Part shown: one piece after another, positions 5,612 to 16,319 of the stretch | Layout of the letters: every line of letters starts with the position of its first letter | Position numbering within the stretch: position 1 is the stretch's first letter | Source: Salipiger pallidus | GTDB taxonomy: Bacteria > Pseudomonadota > Alphaproteobacteria > Rhodobacterales > Rhodobacteraceae | Direction of reading: 5' to 3' | DNA length: 64,000 nt | Assembly: GCF_014643635.1 (NCBI RefSeq) | Contig: NZ_BMJV01000004.1 | Coordinates: 186,001 to 250,000, forward strand | Translations under genes and position numbers: made by a program | The notes under the pieces: model-generated | Databases searched by the model: none | The model's input: only the letters and a program-made list of their open reading frames with translations | What the model was told of the DNA's origin: nothing

Positions 5612-7132
5612 TCAGAAGAACCCGAGCTTGTTGGGGTTGTAGCTCATCAGGATGTTCTTGGTCTGCTGGTAGTGGTCCAGCATCATCTTGTGGTTCTCGC
5701 GCCCGATGCCCGACTGCTTGTAGCCGCCAAAGGCTGCGTGGGCCGGGTAGGCGTGGTAGTTGTTGACCCACACCCGGCCTGCCTCGATGGCGCGGCCGAA
5801 GCGGTAGCAGCGGGTCGCATCGCGGGTCCACACCCCGGCACCAAGGCCATACATGGTGTCATTCGCGATGGCGAGCGCCTCTGCCTCGTCCTTGAAGGTC
5901 GTCACCGACACCACGGGGCCAAAGATTTCCTCCTGGAAGACCCGCATCTTGTTGTGGCCCTTCAGGATGGTCGGCTGGATATAGTACCCGCTCGACAGAT
6001 CGCCGTCGAAGCTGGCCGCCGCGCCGCCCACGAGGCATTCGGCCCCTTCTTCACGACCGATGGTGAGGTAGGACAGGATCTTTTCCTGCTGCTCGGCCGA
6101 GGCCTGCGCGCCCACCATGGTGTCCATCTCGCGCGGGTCGCCCTGCTTGATGGCCTTCACGCGCTCGATGCAGCGGGCGATGAATTCCTCGTAGATGTCC
6201 TCCTGGATGAGGGCGCGGGACGGGCAGGTGCAGACCTCGCCCTGGTTGAAGGCAAAGAGCACGAAGCCTTCCACCGCCTTGTCGAGGAAGGCGTCGTCTT
6301 CTGCCATCACGTCCGAGAAGAAGATGTTGGGGGATTTGCCGCCCAGTTCCAGCGTCACGGGAATGAGGTTTTCGGTCGCCGCTTCCATGATCTTGCGGCC
6401 CGTTGCGGTCGATCCGGTGAAGGCGATCTTGGCGATGCGCTTGGAGCGGGCCAGCGGGCCGCCCACGTCCGGGCCCATGCCGTTGACGATGTTCAGCACG
6501 CCGTCCGGCAGCAGGTCGGCGATCAGCTCGACCAGCACGAGGATCGCGGCGGGGGTCTGTTCCGCCGGTTTCAGCACGATGCAGTTGCCTGCCGCCAGCG
6601 CCGGGGCCAGCTTCCATGCCGCCATCAGGATCGAGAAGTTCCACGGGATGATCTGCCCCACCACTCCCAGCGGCTCATGGTAATGGTAGGCCACGGTGTC
6701 TTGGTCGATCTCGGACATGTTGCCTTCCTGCGCGCGCAGGACACCGGCGAAGTAGCGGAAGTGGTCCACCGCCAGCGGGATGTCGGCGTTCATCGTCTCG
6801 CGGATCGGCTTGCCATTGTCCCAGGTTTCGGCCTGGGCAAGAAGCTCGAGGTTTTCCTCGATGCGGTCAGCGATCTTGAGGATGATGTTCGACCGCTCGG
6901 CAGCCGAAGTCTTGCCCCAGGCCTCGCGCGCTGCATGGGCGGCATCGAGCGCCAGCTCCACGTCGGCGGCGCCGGACTTGGGGATCTCGCACACCGTCTG
7001 GCCGGTGATCGGGGTGATGTTCTCGAAATACTCGCCGCCGACGGGTGGGACGAACTTGCCGCCGATGAAGTTGTCGTAGCGGGTCTTGAAGGGGGAGGCG
7101 TACTTGCCTTCCGTCTGGGACATGACGTTCAT
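5612..7132 (-). CDS. NAD-dependent aldehyde dehydrogenase, ExaC/acetaldehyde dehydrogenase type
   Basis: This 506-residue enzyme oxidises an aldehyde to the acid with NAD+. Catalytic Glu is E262 in LELGGKSPN and catalytic Cys is C301 in [12 protein letters not shown], the variant typical of the AldB/ExaC bacterial acetaldehyde dehydrogenases. The NAD-fold motif FTGSTATGR begins near residue 238. Length is the family norm. The start at 7132 follows an aggagg site by 7 bases. It would remove the aldehyde made by a PQQ alcohol dehydrogenase, which fits pedF and the MoxJ-like gene upstream. It is divergent from the SDR pseudogene at 7412; the 279 bases between hold the promoter region and a GntR-like site. 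Confidence 0.88.
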
Positions 7133-7362
7133 GATAAAATCCTCCTGTAGCGCCGGATCCTCCACCCGGAGCTGAGTGCAGTCTGAACCCGCGCCGCCCC
7201 TGTGTCATCAAGACCAAGGTAGGAGGGGCGGCAGGCGCGGTAGTTTGCCGGTCCCGCGCCTGGCCATAGGCGGTCCGTGGCCCGGAGCAGGCGGGGTCCG
7301 AGCCCTGATGCATACTGGGCTGTGCATCTGTCGCTGTTTGGCCCGCCTCCCTGCCTTACCAA

Positions 7363-7374
7363 ATGATATACCAA
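7363..7374. promoter_or_regulatory. Candidate GntR/FadR-type operator (imperfect)
   Basis: The 12-mer atgatataccaa matches 10 of 12 positions of the palindrome ttggtataccaa, the style of operator bound by GntR-family regulators. A perfect copy lies at 51305. This one sits 38-49 bases before the first codon of the SDR pseudogene and also upstream of the divergent aldehyde dehydrogenase. Binding is inferred from resemblance only. Confidence 0.35.
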
Positions 7375-7411
7375 GGCGTGCAGGGGTCTTTGGGCCAACA
7401 AGGAGAGTATC

Positions 7412-8241
7412 ATTGAGTTCAAGGACAAGGTCATAATCGTGATCGCGCGGCGGGAGGCATCGGCATCGCGGCGGCGCGCAAGTTCGCGGCAGAGGGTGCG
7501 AAGCTGGCGCTTGTGGAACCCAAGCGTGACGCGCTCGAGGAGGCTGCGGGTGACATCGAGGGCGCGTTGCTGCTGACAGCGGACGTGTCGGTGCAAGGGG
7601 CGTCAAGGACTACGTGGCGCGCACCGTTGAAGCATATGGCCGCATCGACCGCTTCGTGAACAACGCCAGCATCAACGGCGTCATCAAGCCGACCGAAGAG
7701 CTGACATTCGAGAACTACCAGACGGTGCTGGGCATCAACGTGACCGGCGCGGCCATAGGGCGCAAGCACGTCGTGGCGCAGAGGAAGACCCAAGGTTCGG
7801 GCACCATCGTCACTTCCGCATCCAACGGACGCCCACTGGGGGACCCGGCAAGAGCGCCTGTGTCGCCTTGAAGCATGCGCTGATCGGGATAAACAAGAGC
7901 GTGGCGCTCGAGGTGGCCGGGAATGGCATCCGGGTCAACGCGGTTTGCCCCTCGGGGGGGACACGCAGATGATGAGCTCGGTCGAGCCCCATGCCCGCAA
8001 GGGACATGAGGATTAGGCCCGTGAGGAGTTCGAGAAATCCGGGTCGATGGGGCGGTACGCCGAGGCGGCCGAGTTCGCCCACCTGATGCTGTTCCTTGCA
8101 GGCGACAAAGCCGGCTTCATCACCGGCGCCTATTACCAGATCGACGGTGGCGCGGCGCGGCGTCTGCCTGACCGCCCCCCTCGCGTTGAACGATGCCCCG
8201 ATGCCCGGTCCCGTGCCGGGCCTTTTCATGATGGTGTCTGA
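7412..8241 (+). pseudogene. Decayed short-chain dehydrogenase/reductase (SDR)
   Basis: Pieces of one SDR can be read in order across several frames: EFKDKVIIV, then GIGIAAARKFAAEGAKLALVE, then VEAYGRIDRFVNNASINGVIKP, then INVTGAAI, then GTIVTSASNG, then VALKHALIGINKSVALEVAGNGIRVNAVCPSG, then AGDKAGFITGAYYQIDGGAA. The frame shifts at about 7445, 7600, 7840 and 7960, and there is a stop codon near 8014. The glycine-rich nucleotide loop is cut, the catalytic Tyr-x-x-x-Lys block is degraded, and the first codon reads ATT. The final frame runs on to 8241, so the original stop is also lost. Only a relic remains. Its ancestor was probably an NAD(P)-dependent alcohol or sugar dehydrogenase. Confidence 0.85.
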
Positions 8242-8408
8242 TGGTTGCCCGCCCTGCGCTTGGGCAGAGGTGGCGCGGACCCGCGCAGCGCGAAGGGGGA
8301 TCCGCTCACAAGCCTTTACAAGACCATGGTTAACGGCTCTGCTCCTTCGGACGATCCCGGAAAGACCAGTACCAGAGCGACGGCAGTTTCAGACGACAAG
8401 GGCGTTCC

Positions 8409-11400
8409 ATGGCCATCACGGCAAGCATCCACCACCTCACGCATTACAAGTACGACCGGCCCGTGACCCTCGGTCCGCAGCTGATCCGCCTGCGCCCGGC
8501 GCCGCATTCTCGCACGCGCGTCATCTCGCATTCGCTCAAGGTGGCGCCGTCGGGGCATTTCGTCAGCCACCAGCAGGATCCCTATGGCAACTGGCTGGCC
8601 CGCTTCGTCTTTCCCGAGCCGGTGACCGAGTTCAAGATCGAGGTCGATCTTGTCGCCGACATGACCGTCTACAACCCGTTCGACTTCTTCGTGGACGAGG
8701 AGGGCGAGGAGTGGCCCTTCGAATACCCCGAGGAATTCCGCTCGGATCTCGAGATCTACCGCACCCCGGAACCGGTGGGGCCGCACCTTGAGGATTACCT
8801 CAAGACCATCCCGCGCGAGCCGGTGAACACCGTCAACTTCCTCGTGGACATCAACGCCAAGCTTCAGAAGCACATCGACTATATCGTGCGGCTCGAGCCC
8901 GGGGTGCAGACCCCGGAAGAGACGCTTCAGCAGGGGCGCGGATCGTGCCGGGACACATCGTGGCTGCTGGTGCAGATCCTGCGCCACTTAGGGTTCGCCG
9001 CGCGGTTCTGTTCGGGCTATCTCATCCAGCTGAAGCCGGACCTTCAGGCGCTCGACGGCCCCTCGGGGACAGATCACGACTTCACCGACCTGCACGCATG
9101 GTGCGAGGTCTTCCTGCCCGGCGCGGGCTGGATCGGGCTTGACCCGACCTCGGGGCTGCTGACGGGCGAGAGCCACATCCCCCTTGCTGCAACCCCGCAT
9201 TACCGCAACGCCGCGCCCATCACCGGGGGCTTTTCCGCCGTGGGCAGCCCCAAGGTTGATTTCGACTTCGACATGACGGTGACCCGCACCGCCGAGCATC
9301 CGCGCATCACCAAGCCGTTCTCGGAAGAGGCGTGGGATGCGCTAGATGCGCTGGGCAACAAGGTGGATGAGGTCATCAAGGCGCAGGACATGCGCCTGAC
9401 GATGGGTGGCGAGCCGACTTTCGTATCCATCGATGATTTCGAAAGCGCCGAATGGAATACCGCCGCCGTCGGCCCCACCAAGCGTGACCGCGCCGACATC
9501 CTGATCCGCCGCCTGAGGGACCGCTTCGCGCCGGGGGGCTTCCTCCATTACGGGCAGGGCAAGTGGTATCCCGGCGAGACGCTGCCGCGCTGGACCTTCT
9601 CGCTCTACTGGCGGCGCGACGGCAAGCCGATCTGGAAGAACTCGGATCTCGTGGCCCGCGAAACCGCCAAGGGGGCGACGGCCGAGCAGGCGGACCAGTT
9701 CCTGTCGACCTTCGCGGAACACCTCGGGGTGGATGGGGATTACGTCCATCCCACCTTTGAGGATCCGGTGGATTGGATCCTAAAGGAAGCGGACCTGCCC
9801 GCCAACGTGACGCCCGAGGACAACAAGCTCAAAGACCCCGAGGCGCGGGCACGCATTGCCAAGGTCTTTACCCGCGGCCTCGAGAAACCGGCGGGCTACG
9901 TGCTGCCGCTTCAGCGTATGTGGCAGAGCAAGCACCAGCCCTCGACCCGCTGGCGGTCCGAGCATTGGAAGACCCGCCGCGGCCACCTGTTCCTCGTGCC
10001 CGGTGACAGCCCCGTGGGCTTCCGCCTGCCGCTGGGCGCGCTGCCCTACATCGCGCCTTCGGCCTATCCTTACGTCTATCCCGCCGATCCCACGGTGCCG
10101 GTGGAGCCGCTGCCCGATTTCCACGCCGAGCGCGAGGAAAAGCGCCGCGCCCTGATGGAGGAGCTTGCGCGCATTGCGCAGGAGGAAGAGCAGATTGCGC
10201 AGGAGCAGGCCGATATCCTGCCCGAGATCACCGAAGGCCGCGACCAGCCGGTGAGCGTGGCGCGCGACGCGGGCCGCCGCCAGAAGGTCATGGAGCAGGG
10301 CGTCGATCCGGCGGGCGGACAGGTCCGCACCGCCATCGCCATCGAGCCGCGCGACGGGCGGCTGTGCCTCTTCATGCCGCCGGTCGAGACGCTGGATGAT
10401 TACCTCGAACTGCTGGCCGCCGCCGAGGAAACTGCCGAAGAGCTGGGCCTGCCCATCCATATCGAGGGCTACACGCCCCCGCATGACAGCCGCATGAACG
10501 TGATCCGCGTGGCACCCGATCCGGGTGTGATCGAGGTGAACATCCATCCCGCACACTCTTGGGAGGACTGCAAGGAGATCACCGAAACCGTCTACGAAGA
10601 GGCGCGCCAGAGCCGCCTTGGCGCAGACAAGTTCATGATCGATGGCAAGCACACTGGCACCGGAGGTGGCAACCACGTGGTGGTGGGCGGCGAGACGACG
10701 CTCGACAGCCCGTTCCTGCGGCGGCCAGATCTGATGCGCTCGCTCATCCTCTATTGGCTGCGCCACCCGTCGCTGTCGTACCTCTTCAGCGGGCTCTTCA
10801 TCGGCCCGACGTCGCAGGCGCCGCGCATCGACGAGGCGCGGCATGACAGCCTCTACGAGCTGGAAATCGCGCTGTCGCATTTCCCCAGCCCGGGCCAGGG
10901 CGAGCCGCCGCAGCCGTGGCTGACGGACCGGCTGCTGCGTAACATGCTGATCGACGTGACCGGCAACACGCACAGGGCCGAGATCTGCATCGACAAGCTG
11001 TTTTCGCCCGACGGGCCCACCGGACGGCTTGGCCTCGTGGAATTCCGCGGCTTCGAGATGCCGCCCGACCCGCGCATGAGCCTTGCCCAGCAGGTGCTCA
11101 TCCGGGCGCTGCTGGCGCGGTTCTGGAAAGAGCCGGTGCAGGGCCGCCCGGTGCGCTGGGGCACGACGCTGCACGACCGTTTTATGCTGCCCTATTTCGT
11201 GTGGCAGGATTTCCTCGAGGTGCTGCGCGACCTGCGGTCCCACGGGTTCGACTTCCGGTCAGACTGGTACGAGGCGCAGAAAGAGTTCCGCTTCCCCTTC
11301 GCGGGCGAGGTCGAATACGAGGGCGTTCACCTTCAGCTCAACCAGGCGCTCGAGCCGTGGCATGTGCTGGGGGAACGCGGCGCCATCGGTGGTACCGTGC

Positions 11401-11840
11401 GCTACACCGACAGTTCGGTGGAGCGGATGCAGGTGCAGCTGACGGCGATGGACCCGGACCGCTACATCGTCACCTGCAACAAGCGGCCTGTGCCGCTGGC
11501 CGATACCGATGCGGGCGGGGTCAAGGTGGGCGGCGTACGCTTCAAGGCGTGGCAGCCCGGCGATGCGCTGCACCCGACGCTGCCGGTGAACGCGCCACTG
11601 GTCTTCGACATCTTCGACACTTGGACGGGCCGGGCGCTTGGGGGCTGCACCTATCATGTGGCGCACCCGGGCGGGCGCAACTACGAGACCTTCCCGGTCA
11701 ACGGCAACGAGGCTGACGCGCGCCGACTTGCGCGATTTGAGAAGTTGGGCCATACCCCCGGCTCCTACTGGCCCGCGCCCGAGCACCCGCACCCGGAATT
11801 TCCCATGACCCTGGACCTGCGGAGGATGCCGGGACTCTGA
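8409..11840 (+). CDS. Transglutaminase-like + DUF2126 putative amidoligase fusion protein
   Basis: A very large (1143-residue) cytoplasmic protein. Residues 1-100 form the bacterial transglutaminase N-terminal beta domain (IHHLTHYKYDRPV). Residues 140-260 are a transglutaminase/cysteine-peptidase core with a visible triad: C180 in GRGSCRDTSW, H229 in DLHAWCEVF and D245 in WIGLDPTSG. From about 330 to the end lies DUF2126, classed by its family as a putative amidoligase (carboxylate-amine ligase of glutamine synthetase fold). It includes LTMGGEPTFVS, KHTGTGGGNHVV and LVEFRGFEMPP. One chain therefore combines a possible peptide-bond-cleaving or acyl-transferring domain with a possible peptide-bond-forming domain. 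No signal peptide is seen. It is followed after 19 bases by the ATP-grasp/alpha-E gene. The substrate is unknown. Confidence 0.88.
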   Translation: MAITASIHHLTHYKYDRPVTLGPQLIRLRPAPHSRTRVISHSLKVAPSGHFVSHQQDPYGNWLARFVFPEPVTEFKIEVDLVADMTVYNPFDFFVDEEGEEWPFEYPEEFRSDLEIYRTPEPVGPHLEDYLKTIPREPVNTVNFLVDINAKLQKHIDYIVRLEPGVQTPEETLQQGRGSCRDTSWLLVQILRHLGFAARFCSGYLIQLKPDLQALDGPSGTDHDFTDLHAWCEVFLPGAGWIGLDPTSGLLTGESHIPLAATPHYRNAAPITGGFSAVGSPKVDFDFDMTVTRTAEHPRITKPFSEEAWDALDALGNKVDEVIKAQDMRLTMGGEPTFVSIDDFESAEWNTAAVGPTKRDRADILIRRLRDRFAPGGFLHYGQGKWYPGETLPRWTFSLYWRRDGKPIWKNSDLVARETAKGATAEQADQFLSTFAEHLGVDGDYVHPTFEDPVDWILKEADLPANVTPEDNKLKDPEARARIAKVFTRGLEKPAGYVLPLQRMWQSKHQPSTRWRSEHWKTRRGHLFLVPGDSPVGFRLPLGALPYIAPSAYPYVYPADPTVPVEPLPDFHAEREEKRRALMEELARIAQEEEQIAQEQADILPEITEGRDQPVSVARDAGRRQKVMEQGVDPAGGQVRTAIAIEPRDGRLCLFMPPVETLDDYLELLAAAEETAEELGLPIHIEGYTPPHDSRMNVIRVAPDPGVIEVNIHPAHSWEDCKEITETVYEEARQSRLGADKFMIDGKHTGTGGGNHVVVGGETTLDSPFLRRPDLMRSLILYWLRHPSLSYLFSGLFIGPTSQAPRIDEARHDSLYELEIALSHFPSPGQGEPPQPWLTDRLLRNMLIDVTGNTHRAEICIDKLFSPDGPTGRLGLVEFRGFEMPPDPRMSLAQQVLIRALLARFWKEPVQGRPVRWGTTLHDRFMLPYFVWQDFLEVLRDLRSHGFDFRSDWYEAQKEFRFPFAGEVEYEGVHLQLNQALEPWHVLGERGAIGGTVRYTDSSVERMQVQLTAMDPDRYIVTCNKRPVPLADTDAGGVKVGGVRFKAWQPGDALHPTLPVNAPLVFDIFDTWTGRALGGCTYHVAHPGGRNYETFPVNGNEADARRLARFEKLGHTPGSYWPAPEHPHPEFPMTLDLRRMPGL

Positions 11841-11859
11841 TCGCGATGACCCCCTTGCC

Positions 11860-14292
11860 ATGGCACAGCCGACCCAAGACCGACCCAATACCGAGCCCGC
11901 CTCGGATCCCCGGGATCCGCTGAGGCGTTTCCTCGAGGGCTACGCGCCTCTCGAGGGAGTGTCGGACGAGCTCATGCAGCCGGACGGATCGCTGCGCCCG
12001 GTTTGGGATCCGCTGCTTCGGCGGCTGGCCGAGCAGGGGGCGCATGACCGCGACAGCGCCTTTGCGCGGGGGGACCAGTACCTTCGCGACACCGGGGTCT
12101 ATTTCCGCCAGTACAGCGGCTCTGGCTCCGAGGAGCGCAGCTGGCCGCTGAGCCATGTGCCGGTGGTCATCGAGGGCCGCGAATGGCAGGCTCTGGCCAG
12201 CGGCATCGAACAGCGCGCCGAGCTTCTGGAACGGGTGATGGCCGACCTATACGGCGACGGCCAGCTGGTACGGGACGGCCACCTGCCCGCCGAGCTTGTG
12301 GCGCAGAACCCCGAATGGCTGCGCCCGGTTGTGGGGATCAAGCCGCGCTCGGGGCATTACCTGCACTTCCTCGCCTTCGAGCTGGGCCGGTCGCCGGACG
12401 GGCGCTGGTTCGTTTTGGGGGACCGTACGCAGGCGCCATCGGGGGCGGGGTTTGCGCTGGAAAACCGCATGGCCTCGACCCGGATCTTCCGCGACATGTT
12501 CCCGATGGGCAACGTGGAGCGGCTGGCGGGCTTCTTCCGCAGCTTCCGAGATGCCATGAACGGCATGCGCGGCGGCGGCTATGGCCGGGTGGGCATTCTG
12601 ACACCGGGCCAGCACACGGACACCTACTACGAACACGCCTACATCGCCCGCTACCTCGGGTTCTCTTTGCTTGAATGCGAGGACCTCAAGGTGCAGGACG
12701 GTCAGCTCGCCGTGCGCACCATCAAGGGAGCTGAGCCGGTCTCCGTGCTCTGGCGGCGACTGGATTCACGCTTCGCCGACCCGCTGGAGCTGGACGAGAC
12801 CTCGGCCCTCGGGACGCCCGGCATGGTGTCGGCGCTGCGGGCCGGGGCGCTCGACATGGTGAACTGCCTCGGGTCGGGCGTGCTCGAGGCGCGGGCGATG
12901 ATGGCCTTCCTGCCGCGTTTGTCCGAAAGGCTCATGGGCGCGCCACTGGAACTGCCGAACATCGCCACGTGGTGGTGCGGCCAGAAGGCGGAACGCGATT
13001 ACGTTCTGGCCAACATCGACCGCATGATGATCGGGTCCGCCCAGACCCCCAAGCTGCCCTTCGATCGCGGCGCCACCACGGTGCTTGGCGACAACTTCCG
13101 CGCCACCGCTTATTCCTCCATTTCCGAATGGCTGAACAATGACGGCGCGGCGCTGGTGGGGCAGGAGGCGGTGACGCTGTCCACCACCCCCGCGATGATC
13201 GACGGACAGCTTGCCCCGCGCCCCATGGTGGTGCGAGTGTTCGCGGCCCGCACGCCGGACGGCTGGACTGTGATGCCCGGCGGCTATGCCCGCATCGGGC
13301 GCTCCGGCGATGCGGCGGCGCTGGCGATGCAGGCGGGCGGCTCGGTGGCCGATGTCTGGGTGATGTCCGACAGCCCCGTGGAGCATGACACGCTTACCCC
13401 CAAGGCCTCCGGCCCCTTCCTGCGCCGCGGTCCCGGACTGCTGCCAGCGCGGGCCGCCGACAACCTGTTCTGGCTGGGGCGCTACATCGAACGGGCCGAA
13501 GGGCACATGCGGGTGTTGCGCGCCTATCACCTGCGGCTGGAGGAATACGGTCGCCGCGCGGTGCCGCTGGTGGCCCGCCTGGCGGGGTTCCTCGACAGCT
13601 ACGGGCTGGACAGTGCCGAACCGCTGCCAAAGGCACTGGTCGGCCAGTTCGAAGCATCGGTGTTCTGTGCAAGCAAGGTCCGCGACCGGTTCTCGGTGGA
13701 TGGCTGGAACGCGGTGAACGATCTGTCCACCACGGCGCGCGAGCTGGCGGCCAGGGTGAAGGACGGCGACGACGCCGCCCATGCCATGGGCGTGCTGCTG
13801 CGCAAGACCGCCGGCTTCGCGGGCCTCGTGCATGACAACATGTTCCGCTTCCTCGGCTGGCGCTTCCTGACCATCGGGCGGGCGCTGGAGCGGGCCGATC
13901 ACATGGCCTCGGTCCTGATGACCTTCGCCGACGACAGCGCCCCTGAAGGCAGCTTCGACGCGGCGGTCGAGATCGGCGACAGCGTCATGACTCACCGCCG
14001 CCGCTACAGCGTCGAGACCGGGCGCGACACGGTGATTGACCTGCTGGCGCTCGACCGGGACAACCCGCGGTCTATCCTGTTCCAGCTCGACGTCCTGCGC
14101 GAGGAAGAGGCGCGGCTGGCGGAAACCTGCGGACTGCGGCACGAACTTGGCGACACCGGGCGCCGCATCCTGACGCTGCAGACCATGGTCGCCGTGTCGA
14201 CCCCGCCCCAGATTGCGTCCCGCAGGCTGGCCCGCATCCGGCGCGAGCTGGCGGGAGTTTCCGAAGCGCTTACCGCGCAGTACCTGAGCTGA
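11860..14292 (+). CDS. Circularly permuted ATP-grasp ligase fused to an alpha-E domain
   Basis: An 810-residue protein. The first ~480 residues are a circularly permuted type-2 ATP-grasp domain, recognisable from LLERVMADLYGDGQLV, NPEWLRPVVGI, GRWFVLGDRTQAPSGAGFALENR, GRVGILTPGQHTDTYYEHAYIARYLGF and ATWWCGQ. From about residue 525 a helical alpha-E domain begins with LLPARAADNLFWLGRYIERAEGH. In many bacteria these two domains are separate adjacent genes; here they are fused. ATP-grasp enzymes join a carboxylate to an amine using ATP, and comparative genomics links this subfamily with alpha-E, transglutaminase and amidoligase partners in predicted peptide synthesis or modification. It is in the middle of exactly that set, with 10-19-base gaps on both sides, so co-expression is very likely. 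Confidence 0.88.
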   Translation: MAQPTQDRPNTEPASDPRDPLRRFLEGYAPLEGVSDELMQPDGSLRPVWDPLLRRLAEQGAHDRDSAFARGDQYLRDTGVYFRQYSGSGSEERSWPLSHVPVVIEGREWQALASGIEQRAELLERVMADLYGDGQLVRDGHLPAELVAQNPEWLRPVVGIKPRSGHYLHFLAFELGRSPDGRWFVLGDRTQAPSGAGFALENRMASTRIFRDMFPMGNVERLAGFFRSFRDAMNGMRGGGYGRVGILTPGQHTDTYYEHAYIARYLGFSLLECEDLKVQDGQLAVRTIKGAEPVSVLWRRLDSRFADPLELDETSALGTPGMVSALRAGALDMVNCLGSGVLEARAMMAFLPRLSERLMGAPLELPNIATWWCGQKAERDYVLANIDRMMIGSAQTPKLPFDRGATTVLGDNFRATAYSSISEWLNNDGAALVGQEAVTLSTTPAMIDGQLAPRPMVVRVFAARTPDGWTVMPGGYARIGRSGDAAALAMQAGGSVADVWVMSDSPVEHDTLTPKASGPFLRRGPGLLPARAADNLFWLGRYIERAEGHMRVLRAYHLRLEEYGRRAVPLVARLAGFLDSYGLDSAEPLPKALVGQFEASVFCASKVRDRFSVDGWNAVNDLSTTARELAARVKDGDDAAHAMGVLLRKTAGFAGLVHDNMFRFLGWRFLTIGRALERADHMASVLMTFADDSAPEGSFDAAVEIGDSVMTHRRRYSVETGRDTVIDLLALDRDNPRSILFQLDVLREEEARLAETCGLRHELGDTGRRILTLQTMVAVSTPPQIASRRLARIRRELAGVSEALTAQYLS

Positions 14293-14302
14293 GGGCGGCC
14301 AA

Positions 14303-15181
14303 ATGTCCCAGACCTACGATATCACGCTGCGCATCAGCTACCGCTACGACAGCCCCGCCGCTGCGCACCGCGCGATGCTGCGGATGCTGCCGCGCAACCT
14401 GCCCGAACAGCAGCTTCTGACAGGCCGGGTCACCGCCGACCCGGCACCGGATTACCGGCTGGACGACGTTGATTTCTTTGGCAACCCGGTGACCGAGCTG
14501 GCCCATGAACGGCGCCTGTCCGAGATCGACTTCCGCTTTGAGGGCCGGGTGCGGCGCCACCGCACGACCGTCGGGCTCGACCTGTCTTCGGGTCTCGCCA
14601 CGCTGCCGCATGAGGTGGCGCAGATCGCCGACATCGGGCAGGCAAGCCCGCACCATTTCCTTGGCGGGTCGCCGAGGATCAGCCATCAGCCCGAGATCGC
14701 CGCCTTCGCCCGGGAGTGCGTCAGCTCCGGCATGTCCGCGCTGGCGGCGGCGGATGCCGTGAGCCTCGCGCTGAACGAGCTTTTCGATTTCGATCCCGGG
14801 GCGACCGAGGTTACCACAACCGCCATCGAGGCCTTCCGCGCCCGCCGCGGCGTCTGCCAGGACATCAGCCACGTGATGATCACCGCCCTGCGTGAACTAG
14901 GCATTCCGGCGGGCTACGTGTCGGGTTTCTTGCGCACTATCCCGCCCGAGGGGCAGCCGAGGCTCGAGGGAGCGGATGCCATGCACGCCTGGGTGCGCGC
15001 CTGGGTCGGGGGCGACACCGGGTGGGTCGAATTCGATCCCACCAACGCCATCCGCGTGGGGCTCGACCATGTCACCGTGGCGCATGGGCGCGACTATTCC
15101 GACGTGGCTCCTGCCAAGGGCGCGATCCGGACCGAGGGCTCGCACGAGACCACCCATTACGTGGACGTGGTGCCGGTCTAG
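14303..15181 (+). CDS. Transglutaminase-family protein (cysteine peptidase-like)
   Basis: A 292-residue protein with the bacterial transglutaminase N-terminal domain (ITLRISYRYDSPAAAHRAMLRMLP) and a catalytic core at about 150-260. The triad is C185 in RRGVCQDISHVM, H228 in DAMHAWVRAW and D245 in GWVEFDPTN. It lacks the DUF2126 half of the first gene, so the cluster carries a two-domain and a stand-alone version of the same catalytic fold. It starts 10 bases after the ATP-grasp/alpha-E gene. Likely role: cleaving or exchanging amide bonds of the peptide-like product made by the ligases (inference). No export signal is seen, so the reaction would be cytoplasmic. Confidence 0.88.
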   Translation: MSQTYDITLRISYRYDSPAAAHRAMLRMLPRNLPEQQLLTGRVTADPAPDYRLDDVDFFGNPVTELAHERRLSEIDFRFEGRVRRHRTTVGLDLSSGLATLPHEVAQIADIGQASPHHFLGGSPRISHQPEIAAFARECVSSGMSALAAADAVSLALNELFDFDPGATEVTTTAIEAFRARRGVCQDISHVMITALRELGIPAGYVSGFLRTIPPEGQPRLEGADAMHAWVRAWVGGDTGWVEFDPTNAIRVGLDHVTVAHGRDYSDVAPAKGAIRTEGSHETTHYVDVVPV

Positions 15182-15329: not shown

Positions 15330-16319
15330 ATGCGACGCATCGACGAGAAACTGGCCAAGATCACCTCTGGCGACTACGGGCCGCGGGACTTCCTTGTCAC
15401 CTTTTCAAAGGACGCGGACATGTTGCGTGGCTGTTCGGCCACCGGCAAGGATGCGAACGGGCGGCCCCGTCCGCTTGCTGCCTACCGCGCCGACGTGAAG
15501 CGGGTGATCGAAAGTGATCTGGCAGATATCGTGCTGACCTCTCTGTCCACCGCCGAGATGCTGGCCGAGAATGGCGTCTACAGCAGTTCCAACGCGACGC
15601 CGGCGGTGCGGCTTAACGATGCCACCGACCAATGGCGCGTGCGGGGCGGGACCTATTCGGCGCAACCAGGCATTCCCTTCCGGTCCTCGCGGCTCGATGC
15701 GGTCAAGCCGGTGTCCAACCTTGGGCTCTACGGCATGACCTTATACAACGACGCAGCACTCGACCATGCAACGCTTCGCGCCTATTGTGATTTCCGTGAC
15801 CTGTCCACGCGCATGGGGATCCGCCATTTCCTGCAATTGTCGGATCCGCAGGTCGCGGTTGCCACCGGCGATCATGATTACGGTGCCTTTCGCAACGATA
15901 TGCTGATGCGCAGCCTCGCGGGAATTGCCCGCCGCGAACGCCCACTCTTCATCGAGGTGGATTACCACGGCCCCGCCTACATGGAGGAACTGGCCGGCTG
16001 GTATCCCTGCCGCATGGTGGTGGGGATTACCGGCTGCGGGGCGGGCACCACCCGTGATTGCCTCGAACGGCTCGCGCAAGCTGAGAAATATGGTGCGCGG
16101 CTGGCGGGGTTCAGCCGTGAGAGCTTTGACTGCGAGGATCCGGTGCTGCTGCTTCAGGCCATGCGCCGGGTGATCCGCGACGGCATGGACAGCTTTGATG
16201 CGGTGAGGGCCTATCATGACGATCTGAAACGCGAGATGATCGTGCCGTTCCGGGCGCTCCAGGACGACGTGGAACTGACCTCGCCGTTGCTGAAGGCACA
16301 TGCCTCCCGCGCTGCCTGA
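15330..16319 (+). CDS. Uncharacterised protein, aldolase-like TIM barrel (tentative)
   Basis: A 329-residue soluble protein I do not recognise by name. Its middle and end have the look of a (beta/alpha)8 class-I aldolase such as DhnA/LacD. There are alternating strands such as RPLFIEVDYHGPA and CRMVVGITGCGAGTTRDCLE, then EKYGARLAGFSRESFDCEDPVLLLQAMRRVIRDGMD, close to the C-terminal phosphate-binding part of that fold. An early segment (ADIVLTSLSTAEMLAENGVY) also fits a sugar-phosphate-type barrel. I cannot point to the Schiff-base lysine with confidence. It starts 148 bases after the transglutaminase-family gene in the same direction, and could be either the last member of that cluster or an independent enzyme. 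Confidence 0.55.
   Translation: MRRIDEKLAKITSGDYGPRDFLVTFSKDADMLRGCSATGKDANGRPRPLAAYRADVKRVIESDLADIVLTSLSTAEMLAENGVYSSSNATPAVRLNDATDQWRVRGGTYSAQPGIPFRSSRLDAVKPVSNLGLYGMTLYNDAALDHATLRAYCDFRDLSTRMGIRHFLQLSDPQVAVATGDHDYGAFRNDMLMRSLAGIARRERPLFIEVDYHGPAYMEELAGWYPCRMVVGITGCGAGTTRDCLERLAQAEKYGARLAGFSRESFDCEDPVLLLQAMRRVIRDGMDSFDAVRAYHDDLKREMIVPFRALQDDVELTSPLLKAHASRAA

Follow-up and report, generated by a model that had tools for sequence, protein, structure and literature searches.

The stretch of DNA analysed here, called the window, comprises 64,000 nucleotides of contig NZ_BMJV01000004.1 of Salipiger pallidus, and contains a trio of adjacent genes at positions 8409-15181. The first gene encodes TG-DUF2126, which joins a transglutaminase-like domain to a candidate ligase domain of glutamine synthetase (GS) type. 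The second encodes a circularly permuted ATP-grasp domain fused to the helical domain Alpha-E, and the third a stand-alone transglutaminase-like protein (Table 1). All three lie on the forward strand and are separated by only 19 and 10 bases. Pfam matches are above cut-off throughout: Bact_transglu_N, Transglut_core and DUF2126 (1312.8 bits) in gene 1, CP_ATPgrasp_2 (423.3 bits) and Alpha-E (177.1 bits) in gene 2, and Transglut_core and Bact_transglu_N in gene 3. Both transglutaminase-like modules have the Cys-His-Asp triad within Transglut_core and are thus members of the transglutaminase-like superfamily; the triad is invariant in 66/66 aligned relatives of TG-DUF2126 and in 57/57 relatives of the stand-alone protein. 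None of the three proteins has a hydrophobic N-terminus in a scan of 19-residue Kyte-Doolittle means with starts within residues 1-42 (best means 0.084, -0.084, and -0.153 for genes 1, 2, and 3), and the products are, to judge by their sequences, probably cytoplasmic. The original prediction for this DNA, made from its letters alone, gave the same gene positions, domains, gaps and ATP-grasp/Alpha-E fusion, which the open reading frames and Pfam confirm. Its intact triads and its cytoplasmic products without an export signal agree with the alignments and the hydropathy scan.

Table 1. Features of the trio, its neighbours and the related loci of the same genome (positions are those of the window unless a locus is named)
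Feature	Position	Strand	Basis
TG-DUF2126, transglutaminase-like domain and GS-fold candidate ligase, 1143 residues	8409..11840	+	open reading frame, Pfam, predicted fold, alignment
Transglutaminase-like part of TG-DUF2126 (Bact_transglu_N and Transglut_core), triad C180/H229/D245	8424..9146	+	
DUF2126 domain, predicted GS/GCS-like fold	9252..11822	+	
Pseudo-ATP-grasp fused to Alpha-E, 810 residues	11860..14292	+	open reading frame, Pfam, residue alignment, predicted fold
CP_ATPgrasp_2 (circularly permuted ATP-grasp) without ATP/Mg site	12160..13296	+	5/6 canonical residues lost
Degenerate metal-binding motif G187-D-R189-T-Q191 (E-D-N-x-R in stand-alone copies)	12418..12432	+	alignment
Alpha-E helical domain, E/R motifs retained	13441..14286	+	Pfam, alignment
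Stand-alone transglutaminase-like protein, 292 residues, triad C185/H228/D245	14303..15181	+	open reading frame, Pfam, alignment
Gene remnant, apparently broken by frame changes	7614..8150	+	
329-residue protein	15330..16319	+	
Anbu operon: stand-alone ATP-grasp, Alpha-E, transglutaminase, Anbu	L036 (G000:C1:720000-739000), 7050-12866	one strand	
Peptidase_Mx with zinc ribbon and HETAH	L176:7723-8808 (G000:C1)		

The fused ATP-grasp is regarded as a pseudo-ligase, because its ATP/Mg site is lost though its fold is kept. The six residues scored correspond to K116, K159, E276, E288, N290, and R292 of E. coli AccC, which we take to be the catalytic ones. All six are retained in 33/33 stand-alone ATP-grasps. 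Among 88 fused ATP-grasps, 75 retain one of the six and 13 retain two, and the window protein has lost five. The E-D-N-x-R positions are conserved in 33/33 stand-alone copies; in the fused copies the E is present in 2/88, the N in 0/88, and the R in 3/88. In the fused copies, variable residues stand in place of both ATP lysines and the Gly-rich loop, and no new lysine is conserved there. The window protein thus has neither the residue set of an active ligase (two lysines, an acidic residue, and E-x-N-x-R) nor the Gly-rich loop. Its predicted structure retains the ATP-grasp/glutathione-synthetase-type fold and is closest to glutathione and glutathionylspermidine synthetases. Unlike the window protein, Mfla_0391 from Methylobacillus flagellatus (PDB 3n6x) keeps all six ATP-grasp residues. 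The annotation "circularly permuted type 2 ATP-grasp protein" therefore covers two classes, one of them apparently without an ATP site. Since the parts for ATP use are lost, the fused ATP-grasp-Alpha-E protein probably acts as a non-catalytic partner.

Another explanation is that the fused domain is alive with a new chemistry, in which, for example, D188-R189-x-Q191 serves a different metal or nucleotide, or acyl transfer proceeds without ATP. The conservation of this replacement motif (D188 in 84/88, R189 in 78/88, and Q191 in 71/88 fused copies) and the invariance of some other polar positions (88/88) are in line with it. The variable residues at the ATP lysines and the Gly-rich loop, with no substitute lysine conserved at those columns, make it improbable.

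The DUF2126 domain is predicted to have a GS/GCS-like fold, and its nearest folds are YbdK, glutamine synthetase, and gamma-glutamylmethylamide synthetase. Twelve acidic, basic, and polar residues are invariant in 66/66 relatives, as a property of the alignment and not of a residue-by-residue superposition on GS. Fold and alignment make DUF2126 a predicted amide ligase, plausibly the only intact one of the trio. Of the two peptide-bond-forming modules in the original prediction, DUF2126 stands and the ATP-grasp does not. Loss of the ATP-binding residues in both ligase domains had been named as a finding that would weaken the idea of a system; it is found in one of the two, the ATP-grasp.

The three genes are a conserved operon. 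GTDB genomes were scanned with a DUF2126 alignment, and the best 80 of at least 593 matching stretches were retained; because the best-scoring loci were kept, the sample represents nearest relatives, mostly alphaproteobacterial by title. The full trio is together in 71/80 loci. Of the 74 loci that extend 3.6 kb or more downstream, 70 are complete and four are incomplete (L051, L078, L094, and L116), and a further 5/80 are incomplete where contig ends cut them. The median gaps are 6 and -2.5 bases (70 loci in which both were measured). The genomes of the four incomplete loci, and of L086 and L117, which are cut by contig ends, carry a circularly permuted ATP-grasp elsewhere (6/6 genomes); the matches in the L051 genome include an 845-residue frame, probably a fused copy. 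An Acidobacteriota plasmid (L199) has the identical gene order. The genes had been proposed as one set, a view that would suffer if they were rarely found together, and the 71 complete loci bear it out.

The peptide-tagging system predicted by Iyer et al. in 2009 is said to consist of a circularly permuted ATP-grasp, a GS-like ligase, an NTN peptidase, and an alpha-helical domain. A second operon in the window genome, at G000:C1, contains a stand-alone core with ATP-grasp (500 residues), Alpha-E (317 residues), transglutaminase (275 residues), and Anbu (263 residues). This Anbu retains T1, D17, and K32 and is the only Anbu-like match of the genome; a second match to the proteasome family lies at C6. 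The trio is at C4, and its operon contains no Anbu gene. Taken together, the trio and the G000:C1 operon comprise ATP-grasp, GS-like ligase, Alpha-E, and Ntn peptidase, which we take to be the parts of the Iyer system against which the genome was compared. Divergent from the G000:C1 operon is a Peripla_BP_5 gene that resembles urea-binding proteins and presumably concerns urea. A similar urea-binding-protein-like gene is near a stand-alone ATP-grasp/Alpha-E pair in L159.

The trio does not look self-sufficient, because all DUF2126 genomes carry Alpha-E and nearly all clearly fused copies co-occur with the stand-alone pair. Among 142 genomes of the class, 21 have DUF2126 and 48 have Alpha-E, and 21/21 DUF2126 genomes are within those 48 (p 3e-12). 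The system is common in a sample of 200 genomes of the phylum, where all 63 genomes with DUF2126 are within the 112 with Alpha-E (p 2e-21). In the family of the window (120 genomes), 32 have a clearly fused Alpha-E copy, defined by a low score and a long frame, and 31/32 also have a stand-alone copy (p ~2.6e-5); the exception, G449, is an 84% complete genome. In the class sample, G069, G099, and G127 (completeness in the range 74-84%) show a fused-type copy alone, and G075 (97% complete) has one ambiguous copy. Anbu is present in 35 genomes of the class sample, all within the 48 with Alpha-E, and overlaps with DUF2126 in 14, so that no Anbu was detected in 7/21 DUF2126 genomes.

These counts bear on the idea, already in the original prediction, that DUF2126 and the fused ATP-grasp both form amides and that the trio alone makes a peptide. 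Such a self-contained synthesis would agree with the conserved operon, with the seven genomes that have the trio and no detected Anbu, and with ligase Pfam models that match far above cut-off. The loss of five of six residues and the Gly-rich loop, the nesting of DUF2126 in Alpha-E genomes, and the occurrence of clearly fused copies almost only beside a stand-alone copy make it very improbable.

TG-DUF2126 and Anbu are in one stretch in L042, L158, L166, L167, L170, L173, L174, and L175. Stand-alone ATP-grasp and Alpha-E are also contained in 16/19 selected TG-DUF2126 stretches, which is not a frequency because the stretches were selected largely for two nearby Alpha-E copies. L042, L173, and L174 show no fused copy, and TG-DUF2126 there neighbours the stand-alone pair and Anbu; DUF2126 therefore seems able to function directly with the core. 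In L037 and L038, the trio leads directly into a second, stand-alone ATP-grasp and an Alpha-E gene, which makes a run of five genes. Small loci of ATP-grasp, Alpha-E, and transglutaminase (L192, L193, L194, and L195) are found in G008, G012, G034, and G086, genomes with no DUF2126 or Anbu match, and are possibly the ancestral core; G012 also carries another Alpha-E, of fused type, at a different position.

Peptidase_Mx (PF15887), a zinc metallopeptidase with a zinc ribbon, is linked statistically to the Alpha-E system as a further partner. It adjoins TG-DUF2126 in 10/80 loci, eight of them head-to-head, and L161 and L169 have it near TG-DUF2126 or Alpha-E. It also lies between two ATP-grasp groups near TG-DUF2126 on a plasmid of Caballeronia (L204), and beside an ATP-grasp/Alpha-E/transglutaminase set on a plasmid of Hymenobacter (L203). 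The class sample has it in 9 genomes over the family cut-off, 9/9 with Alpha-E, two weaker matches having been dropped, of which the genome of one (G117) is without Alpha-E. The phylum sample has it in 29 genomes, 28/29 with Alpha-E (p 2.5e-7; exception G224), and in at least 9/29 (G170, G190, G233, G240, G280, G288, G299, G303, and G322) DUF2126 or Alpha-E is no more than about 3.5 kb away. The window genome has one Peptidase_Mx, at a locus separate from the trio. A literature search, outside which Iyer et al. 2009 lay, found no report of an ATP-grasp pseudo-ligase, of the nesting of DUF2126 within Alpha-E genomes, or of a metallopeptidase partner; nor did the literature searched name a substrate for the system or demonstrate the formation of a peptide tag or conjugate.

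Just 5′ of the trio is the gene remnant of Table 1, presumably a short-chain dehydrogenase/reductase. The 329-residue protein begins 148 bases 3′ of the trio; it matches no Pfam or NCBIfam family, and none of the 80 trio loci contains a homologue.

The system seems tied to nitrogen shortage. The cluster I35_5080-83 of Burkholderia cenocepacia H111 comprises an ATP-grasp (DUF404/407), an Alpha-E (DUF403), a transglutaminase-like protein, and a large transglutaminase-like protein. It is sigma54- and NtrC-dependent under nitrogen limitation, with values of -8.2, -9.4, -9.4, and -6.0 for the ntrC mutant, and is NtrC-controlled alongside urea and spermidine/putrescine transport genes, according to the accessible part of the report (PMC5491218). 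In marine metagenomes these domains associate with urea metabolism (PMC3597751), and Anbu is induced by nitrogen limitation, as cited in PMC5666114 and PMC6376114.

The NtrC control of the Burkholderia cluster together with transport genes for urea and spermidine/putrescine (PMC5491218) would also suit a small-molecule route, in which gamma-glutamyl or polyamine-type amides, and not protein tags, are made and broken for nitrogen handling. Glutathionylspermidine-, gamma-glutamylmethylamide-, or YbdK-product-like amides are examples, and the nearest folds of both the ATP-grasp and DUF2126 point to such compounds. Two transglutaminase-like proteins together with Ntn or zinc peptidases suit peptides better, and the flanks of the trio loci share no conserved gene for catabolism or transport. 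This route is therefore considered doubtful.

The preferred reading, with a probability of roughly 55%, is that the trio serves as an accessory module in a system for peptide ligation and hydrolysis under nitrogen stress, the core of which is elsewhere in the genome (G000:C1). The intact stand-alone ATP-grasp/Alpha-E pair would start an amide bond, either peptide or isopeptide, and DUF2126 would extend or branch the product by GS-type acyl-phosphate chemistry. The pseudo-ATP-grasp-Alpha-E protein would hold and present the same substrate without ATP, probably in association with the active enzymes as a complex. Transfer or cleavage of the linkage may fall to the transglutaminase-like domains, and Anbu or Peptidase_Mx may trim the product. 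Under nitrogen limitation the system would probably handle peptide in the form of a reversible tag or a store; the product may be a tag on proteins, stored peptide, or a small amide, and we lean towards a reversible peptide conjugate.

Several points weigh against this reading. The cited nitrogen links and the Peripla_BP_5 neighbour are not specific to the trio of the window, and a urea-binding gene is absent from the flanks of the 80 trio loci. Of the two Anbu reports (PMC5666114 and PMC6376114, accessible parts), one observed neither a complex among the core proteins of Yersinia nor peptidase activity of Anbu, and the other judges a peptide-synthesis role less likely for Anbu.

A bolder form of the accessory-module reading is a two-tier ligase machine, which comprises the active ATP-grasp/Alpha-E pair, an ancient pseudo-ATP-grasp-Alpha-E acting in trans, and the GS-fold TG-DUF2126. 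With Anbu (Ntn) or Peptidase_Mx (zinc) as interchangeable peptidases, it would form an NtrC-controlled reversible peptide-conjugation cycle. This form is speculative and, as a whole, unlikely. If true, the machine would be the nitrogen-starvation counterpart of pupylation, derived from glutathione-type and glutamine-type ligases. For assays, TG-DUF2126 and the stand-alone ATP-grasp are the informative targets and the fused protein is not; the condition is nitrogen limitation. Anbu and Peptidase_Mx are partners to consider alongside the ligases, and a question dating from 2009 becomes directly testable.

Among known and predicted systems, Mycobacterium presumably has similar genes, Rv2566-Rv2569c and Rv2409c-Rv2411c. 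The B. cenocepacia cluster I35_5080-83 resembles the trio in its ATP-grasp, Alpha-E, and two clustered transglutaminase-like proteins, the large one of which, from its description, would be TG-DUF2126; in contrast, its genes are reported in the accessible part of PMC5491218 as regulon members only. The Anbu operon (PMC6376114, PMC5666114) has domain families in common with the trio, and the window genome holds a complete copy of it at G000:C1. For the stand-alone ATP-grasp from Yersinia bercovieri, release of phosphate from ATP is reported (PMC6376114). The trio departs from the Anbu operon in having no Anbu, a GS-like ligase joined to a transglutaminase, and an ATP-grasp that forms one protein with Alpha-E and has no ATP site. 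These domains were already predicted in 2009 to form a peptide-tagging or peptide-synthesis system, as described in PMC6376114 and PMC5666114, and the "undescribed biochemical system" of the original prediction is thus too strong a term. Taken genome-wide, TG-DUF2126, ATP-grasp, Alpha-E, and Anbu match the parts of the 2009 system, whereas the window genome splits them over two loci and has a pseudo-ligase as the ATP-grasp beside DUF2126. The trio therefore belongs to the kind predicted in 2009, and is distinct in combining a pseudo-ligase ATP-grasp with a ligase of another fold.
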